43,106 nt of DNA from a virus, in the IMG/VR virus record IMGVR_UViG_3300048687_000057, positions 1-43,106 of that record. One strand, 5' to 3'. A program made the position numbers and the translations under genes. This document shows, piece after piece, positions 5,695 to 8,435 of this stretch (the stretch's first letter is position 1; each line of letters opens with the position of its first letter). A model generated the notes under the pieces. That model ran no database searches and had not been told where the DNA came from. It saw nothing but the letters and a program-made list of their open reading frames with translations.

Positions 5695-6441
5695 ATGAAC
5701 ACCACCGCCCAGCACCTCCGCACCATCGCCCTCCACTGGCAGGACCTCCGTGAAGCCGCCGGAGCCCCCGCCCAGTTGGGAGCCTTCGGCCTCGGCCTCC
5801 GCGGCTACCTCGCCCGCCTCGACGACGCCGACGCCGAGCAGCTGGAGTACGAGCGCCACCAGGCCGCGCACCTCCGCTCCCTGGAGCGCGACCCGCTCCA
5901 GCTCGGCGACCGCCCCACCCCGATCCGGTTGCACATCCTCGACACCATGCGCGCCGTCGAGGCCGCTCTCACCGCCTGCGCCGACGACATTGCCCGGCAG
6001 GTACAGCGCACGCCGATGGCCATGCCGAGCGCCCGCTCCGCGACCTACGCCAGCCAGCGCGAGGCCGACGTCGCCCACCAGGACCGGCAGCGCCAAGCCG
6101 CCCTTGCCCGCGCTGATCTGGCCGACCCGCGCAGGTGGCGGCACACCGGCCGCCGCGACGCCGTACGCGCCGCCCTCTGGCTCTGCGCCCGCGTCGAGTA
6201 CCGGCCCGGCCCGTGCAAGCCGCTGAACGAACAACAGGCCAGCCGAATTGCGAAGGTCGCGGCCGGCGCCGCCGAGCGCGTCGAGCGCGCCCTCGACATC
6301 GCCGCGCAGCAGCGGGCGATCGCCCAACGCTGCGCGTGCGGCGGGGAGATCACCATGCACGGAGGCGAGGGCCGGGCCCCGGTCGCGCACTGCGAAGGGT
6401 GCGGACGGATCTGGACTGAACGCGGGGTGGTCGCGGCGTGA
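5695..6441 (+). CDS. helical protein with C-terminal zinc ribbon
   Basis: A 248-aa protein from ATG 5695 with AGGAGCG upstream. It is largely alpha-helical and charged. The C-terminus has a four-cysteine ribbon, CACGG followed by CEGCGRIW. A patch near residue 150 (RWRHTGRRDAVRAAL) is basic. The domain arrangement, helical body plus ribbon, is common in uncharacterised Streptomyces phage proteins with a probable nucleic-acid role. No catalytic motif is seen. The stop is followed by the damage-type promoter at 6466-6488. Confidence 0.65.
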   Translation: MNTTAQHLRTIALHWQDLREAAGAPAQLGAFGLGLRGYLARLDDADAEQLEYERHQAAHLRSLERDPLQLGDRPTPIRLHILDTMRAVEAALTACADDIARQVQRTPMAMPSARSATYASQREADVAHQDRQRQAALARADLADPRRWRHTGRRDAVRAALWLCARVEYRPGPCKPLNEQQASRIAKVAAGAAERVERALDIAAQQRAIAQRCACGGEITMHGGEGRAPVAHCEGCGRIWTERGVVAA

Positions 6442-6465: not shown

Positions 6466-6488
6466 TTGTCAGTGCTGGCAGTTACTCT
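6466..6488 (+). promoter_or_regulatory. RecA-NDp (PafBC-type) DNA-damage promoter
   Basis: TTGTCAGTG (6466-6474), eight bases, then TACTCT (6483-6488) matches every fixed position of the actinobacterial RecA-independent damage promoter, tTGTCRGTG-N8-TAnnnT, which in mycobacteria is activated by PafBC. The ATG at 6495 lies six bases after the -10, so transcription would begin at or next to the start codon and give a leaderless mRNA. The match is direct; regulation is inferred. Confidence 0.75.
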
Positions 6489-6494
6489 CCCGGC

Positions 6495-6941
6495 ATGACG
6501 GTCAAAGGCACATTCACGGTCGAGCTATCGGGGCCCTACGAGCAGCGGGACGCACTGCTGCGGGAGCTCGCGGGCGCCTCCATCGCCGCGCAGTACATCG
6601 CCCCATCGGCTGAAGGACCGGACGAGGAGGCCAAGGGGTGGGTTCGAGCCGAGTTCCACGAAGGAACGGAGTCGCCTGGAGCCGACTTTCAGCGGGCCTG
6701 CCTCGATAAGACCACAGCTCTTGGGGCCCGGTTCGGCTACGAGTTGCGCAGCCACGGGATTGTCGTCAGCGGCGCCAGCGACCTTCGGCACATCGTGGAC
6801 AAGCGCACAGGGAAAGTCCTCATGAAGGGTTTTGGCTTCCCGCCCAACGCAGTGCGGCTGTTCGCTGAAGAAACCGGGATCCCTCTGGAGTACCTGGAGC
6901 TGCGAGAGCCGCCTGGCATGTGGGACGTGCCCGAGGCGTGA
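6495..6941 (+). CDS. unrecognised protein under a damage-type promoter
   Basis: A 148-aa soluble protein with no family I recognise. An in-frame GTG at 6438 overlaps the upstream stop and would add 19 residues, but that extension crosses the promoter, so ATG 6495 as a leaderless start is preferred. The sequence has a strand-like start (KGTFTVELSGPYEQRD) and a late FGFPPNAVRLFAEETGIPLEYLEL segment. Codon use is a little less G/C-biased than neighbours, hinting at an acquired cargo gene. The context suggests expression when host DNA is damaged, independent of LexA. A perfect terminator follows. Confidence 0.65.
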   Translation: MTVKGTFTVELSGPYEQRDALLRELAGASIAAQYIAPSAEGPDEEAKGWVRAEFHEGTESPGADFQRACLDKTTALGARFGYELRSHGIVVSGASDLRHIVDKRTGKVLMKGFGFPPNAVRLFAEETGIPLEYLELREPPGMWDVPEA

Positions 6942-6948
6942 AGGCGGG

Positions 6949-6975
6949 CCGTGCCCTCGTGACCCGAGGGCACGG
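6949..6975 (+). terminator. perfect 11-bp hairpin terminator
   Basis: CCGTGCCCTCG pairs with CGAGGGCACGG around the 5-nt loop TGACC, eight bases after the stop at 6941. Together with the promoter at 6466 it encloses a single-gene unit. Confidence 0.8.
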
Positions 6976-8139: not shown

Positions 8140-8155
8140 TCGAACACGTGCTCTA
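8140..8155. promoter_or_regulatory. imperfect LexA-box-like palindrome
   Basis: TCGAACACGTGCTCTA matches 10 of 12 fixed positions of the actinobacterial SOS box TCGAAC-N4-GTTCGA and contains the palindrome CACGTG. It lies between a TTGCCG hexamer (8128-8133) and the start at 8193, where it could repress the small regulator. Only a candidate. Confidence 0.3.
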
Positions 8156-8192: not shown

Positions 8193-8435
8193 ATGTCCCG
8201 CACCACCACCTCACTACCCGCCGACATGCGACAGGCCAGCATCGAGCGCGCGCACCGCGAGCTGCTTCTCAAGCTCGACGGCGAGCCGAGCGTGCGCGAA
8301 CTGGCCGACGCCGTCGGCGTCACCCCCTCGACGATCAGCCTCCAGCTCAAGAAGATGCGCGAGCGCGGCATCGACATCCGCACGCGCGGCTGGAGACGCC
8401 GGCGCATGTGCCCGCACTGTGGCGGCGACCTGTGA
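8193..8435 (+). CDS. small winged-helix-like DNA-binding protein
   Basis: An 80-aa protein from ATG 8193 (an in-frame GTG lies at 8187). It has a helix-turn-helix resembling the LexA N-terminal domain (VRELADAVGVTPSTISLQLKKMRERGIDI) and a basic tail ending in a half zinc ribbon, CPHCGG. The resemblance covers DNA binding only; no LexA protease domain is present. It overlaps the next gene by GTGA. Likely role: transcription control in the early or lysogenic switch. Confidence 0.7.
   Translation: MSRTTTSLPADMRQASIERAHRELLLKLDGEPSVRELADAVGVTPSTISLQLKKMRERGIDIRTRGWRRRRMCPHCGGDL

Follow-up and report, generated by a model that had tools for sequence, protein, structure and literature searches.

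An element at positions 6466-6488 of a virus genome is probably a functional host-type RecA-NDp promoter, from which ssDNA-loaded PafBC together with the sigma-A polymerase would drive a leaderless gene, and it can be regarded as a phage-owned case of a known promoter class. The DNA analysed, referred to here as the window, is a virus record of 43,106 bases with 69.5% G+C. Prophages are usually described as detecting damage by means of RecA and LexA-like repressors. A conserved PafBC promoter carried by a phage, if true, would add a second route in which ssDNA itself is sensed, and by which the expression of phage genes could be timed to replication. No promoter of this kind was found in the titles, abstract openings and inspected passages of the open-access literature dealing with PafBC or RecA-NDp and phages.

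Membership of the RecA-NDp (PafBC-type) class was judged by the consensus TTGTCRGTG-N8-TANNNT, in which 12 fixed bases were scored. This pattern is matched exactly by the site, which reads TTGTCAGTG-CTGGCAGT-TACTCT and is followed by CCCGGC and then by the ATG (Table 1). The gap between TTGTCA and TACTCT is 11 nt, so the promoter is not a -35/-10 pair of normal spacing. The full pattern occurs once in the window, in none of the 100 dinucleotide-preserving shuffles of it, and a backwards control pattern gave no matches in the window. An earlier note on this DNA had placed a full-match RecA-NDp element within 6466-6495; that interval is correct, the match is exact and the only full one in the window, and the relatives described below keep the element.

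Table 1. Features of the promoter, the gene behind it and the probable end of its transcript (window coordinates).
Feature	Position	Strand	Remarks
PafBC-type upstream (-26) element TTGTCAGTG	6466..6474	+	Conserved in L002, L003, L154 and L158
-10 hexamer TACTCT (TANNNT)	6483..6488	+	8 bases past the -26 element; N8 invariant in all close homologues
ATG start and putative transcription start (+1), leaderless	6495..6497	+	N6 from the -10 hexamer in every close homologue
Acidic protein, 148 aa, pI 5.0, predicted ferredoxin-like fold	6495..6941	+	No Pfam/PHROG/NCBIfam family
GC-rich 11-bp hairpin, probable transcript end	6949..6975	+	z -3.6; no U tract

The window carries genes for a DnaB-like helicase (55-1836), an HNH endonuclease, an Rv2179c-like exonuclease, a terminase, a portal and a major head protein, and further genes for a tape measure, a tail spike, an endolysin, a Cro/CI-type HTH protein and a tyrosine integrase. 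The presence of the integrase and the Cro/CI-type protein indicates a temperate phage, which bears out what the earlier note had taken it to be. The structural genes match their counterparts in Streptomyces phages, SV1 for example, at around 68% nucleotide identity along part of the length, and show up to 86% protein identity to those of an S. harenosi contig. The gene under study follows the replication module, its immediate upstream neighbour being a phrog_7575 gene, and no paralogue of it occurs elsewhere in the window. Its third-position G+C is 0.78 versus 0.89-0.96 in the other genes measured, and this lower value suggests that it was acquired later than its neighbours. A distantly related gene, which has no counterpart in the window, is found on the minus strand of another contig (L164, 9611-10009), adjoining the structural genes of the S. 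harenosi prophage.

In the proposed mechanism, ssDNA would accumulate after damage in the lysogen or, presumably, during phage replication. The host PafBC, once loaded with ssDNA, would steer the polymerase carrying sigma-A to TTGTCAGTG, and transcription would begin at or beside the first base of the start codon at 6495; the resulting mRNA would be leaderless, cover this gene alone and encode the acidic, putatively ferredoxin-like protein of 148 aa. In mycobacteria, ssDNA activates PafBC, which contacts a -26 element via sigma adaptation (PMC11804915). This property, the location of the gene after the replication module (DnaB-like helicase, HNH endonuclease and Rv2179c-like exonuclease) and the occurrence of the same promoter form before YqaJ-type recombinase genes of other phages are also consistent with a variant of the explanation, namely a mainly lytic promoter at which replication ssDNA activates PafBC, the gene being a replication-coupled delayed-early gene and not one that answers environmental damage in a lysogen. 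This variant is possible rather than likely; damage in a lysogen would give the same signal, so that the sequence cannot separate the two sources of ssDNA.

In Streptomyces, the host genus, the motif is a mark of the DNA-damage regulon. In the S. harenosi genome there are 16 motif matches versus none for the control, and the motif precedes recA, uvrA, ruvC, xseA, a UDG-family gene and the genes for a helicase with a UvrB-interaction domain, a DEAD helicase and a sigma factor. The sites are not all at repair genes, as one of them lies before a CoA-transferase frame. Of 150 Streptomyces genomes, 117 contain the exact leaderless form, with about 313 matches (summed from the table of matches) versus none for the reversed pattern. 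In S. coelicolor, a RecA-NDp gene has been reported to be UV-inducible (PMC5087735). On the other hand, the PafBC motif of M. smegmatis was not found to be conserved in S. venezuelae by an initial search, and the pathway was called unproven in Streptomyces (PMC9380542). The counts from the 150 genomes add evidence that the motif is abundant in a genus where the published motif search doubted its conservation.

Close homologues of the gene, whose proteins are 57-61% identical, are found in the S. harenosi contig (L002), in two IMG/VR contigs (L003 and L154) and in another Streptomyces genome (L140/L158), and the phrog_7575 gene also precedes the gene in L002, L003 and L154. The upstream regions of L002 and L003 are nearly the same, which left four distinct sequences for the comparison, those of the window, L002, L154 and L158. 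The element, with its N8 and N6 spacing, is present in all close homologues and keeps 11-12 of the 12 fixed bases: the window and L154 match all 12, and L002/L003 and L158 have one fixed-position mismatch each (T1 to A in L002, T8 to C in L158). Mean pairwise identity among the four sequences is 92% at the fixed bases, 42% in the spacers and 40% in the 20 nt upstream. When the upstream stretch of each homologue was shuffled 200,000 times, at least 11 of the 12 fixed bases were never recovered at the same place. In the 56-kb related phage record of L154, the sole full motif lies again at this gene. The PafBC-type reading of the earlier note is thus supported by an independent test of conservation, and the refuting outcome that it had named, close relatives with the gene but without the motif, was not seen, all of them retaining the element.

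More distant members of the family behave differently. In L147-L151 and L153 (24-33% identity) a TANNNT hexamer lies 6-8 nt before the start, but TGTCAG is missing from its position; L156 lacks both the motif and a leaderless arrangement. Therefore, PafBC control would be a feature of one clade, and the gene family can presumably be expressed without PafBC. These distant promoters are an argument for regarding the promoter as leaderless but damage-independent, with a real TANNNT and a TTGTCAGTG match that is incidental or serves another activator. This alternative is nevertheless unlikely, given that all close homologues have TGTCAG at the same spacing between flanks that drift to about 40% identity, that none of the shuffles reaches the match, and that in the host genus the motif stands before repair genes.

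With respect to translation, no Shine-Dalgarno sequence was found before the ATG at 6495, and protein similarity to the homologues starts exactly at this codon. An in-frame GTG at 6438, from which the reading frame is open, overlaps the stop codon of the upstream gene (GTGA), and translation coupled to that gene would yield a product of 167 aa and reduce the motif to coding sequence. Such a reading is very improbable, because the -10 element of L154 and L140/L158 (TAGTCT and TAGCCT) contains an in-frame stop codon, which makes an upstream in-frame start impossible in these homologues and fixes the ATG as the start. The earlier note had proposed a leaderless start, a single-gene unit and a terminator of its own for the gene. 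The first two stand, with the ATG six bases past the -10 hexamer and this spacing found in every close homologue. As for the third, a GC-rich hairpin is present in the window (CCGTGCCCTCG-TGACC-CGAGGGCACGG, starting 8 nt past the stop codon), but its conservation in the relatives is not clear, and a simple terminator scan requiring a T run found no terminator. Finally, a chance match of the motif, with which the single site in the window would agree, is extremely improbable in view of its conservation in the close homologues and its absence from the 100 window shuffles and, at 11 of 12 bases, from the 200,000 shuffles of each upstream stretch.

The encoded protein was compared with Pfam, PHROGs and NCBIfam using 11 family members, with nothing convincing found, and the 148-aa protein had no protein match in phage and plasmid collections. 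Weak matches in large ORFs (L144-L146) were judged spurious. The AlphaFold2 model is fairly confident (pLDDT 81) and its predicted topology is beta-alpha-beta-beta-alpha-beta plus beta-beta-alpha-beta. Its best PDB match with Foldseek is VC0424 (1nxi; E 1.6e-3, TM 0.50, 91 columns, rmsd 2.7), which is an RraB protein. The ferredoxin-like fold is widespread, so the predicted resemblance to RraB, for which no sequence library gave support, is a weak lead and not a sign of membership; the model of the distant member L156 (pLDDT 57) is too poor for the fold comparison to be repeated. The likeliest role, itself a doubtful one, might be that of a small regulator or inhibitor whose target is a partner from the host or the phage while induction or replication is under way.

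The same promoter form has been observed in other phages. Among viral contigs, the high-GC leaderless form gave 25 matches versus 5 for a reversed-element control; contigs with a G+C of 0.6 or more accounted for 17 matches, 15 of them starting ORFs of at least 59 aa, versus none for the control. The high-GC families behind the motif comprise a protein of about 420 aa with an RNase_T exonuclease domain, zinc-ribbon-like proteins of 63-64 aa, and proteins of 335-340 aa and of 59 aa. The leaderless motif of the RNase_T family was seen in L067, L110, L168 and L179, high-GC contigs of 92-96 kb, the domain having been tested in L179. For the zinc-ribbon-like family there are three homologues: the motif is kept in two that are identical to each other and is absent from the third, which is 72% identical. 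In low-GC phage contigs (L186-L235), a YqaJ recombinase family has at least 10 of the 12 fixed bases at the same spacing in 45 of 48 scored starts, a count that speaks of conservation and not of frequency, since the query was picked for having the motif and many members are near-identical. This family was gathered by protein homology. A family of 80-95 aa (LEPRLQKL..GTDILHGELKNLM) has the leaderless motif in the low-GC contigs L020, L026, L028 and L034 and in many more, and has no Pfam family. It may tentatively be proposed that actinobacterial phages broadly use the ssDNA-activated host PafBC as a second, RecA-independent sensor for leaderless genes, namely the window gene, the YqaJ recombinase family, the exonuclease family and the small zinc-ribbon-like proteins; the trigger would be either damage or the phage's own replication.

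Three known systems can be compared with the one described here. The first is RraB (VC0424), an RNase E inhibitor fold to which the predicted model of the 148-aa protein is alike as its best PDB structural match, whereas the Pfam RraB sequence profile matched none of the 11 family members at E values up to 5. The second is provided by prophage genes controlled by LexA and RecA, for instance those governed by LexA in S. venezuelae (PMC9380542), which are also phage genes expected to answer host DNA damage. Their control is of the derepression type, in contrast to that of the window gene, which would be of the activator type and has no actinobacterial SOS box above chance nearby: the operator CGAAC-N4-GTTCG was not found at the promoter, its nearest weak match (6281-6296) has three mismatches, and the total of SOS-box matches across the window is at chance level. 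Elsewhere, at 8193-8435 on the plus strand, the window encodes a winged-helix protein that matches LexA_DNA_bind weakly (E 1.1e-4), with a TCGAAC half-site upstream (site 8140-8155), and the related phages L154, L157 and L003 carry TCGAACAAGGTTTCTACT before a LexA N-terminal-like gene, the gene itself being seen in L154 and L157. The third system is that of the actinobacterial RecA-NDp/PafBC promoters of repair genes (recA, uvrA, ruvC and SCO6735). These promoters serve host repair genes, whereas that of the window serves a temperate-phage gene without assigned function; they have the same -26 element, N8 spacer and TANNNT -10 hexamer, and the leaderless N6-ATG form seen at the phage site is common on the chromosomes of Streptomyces.
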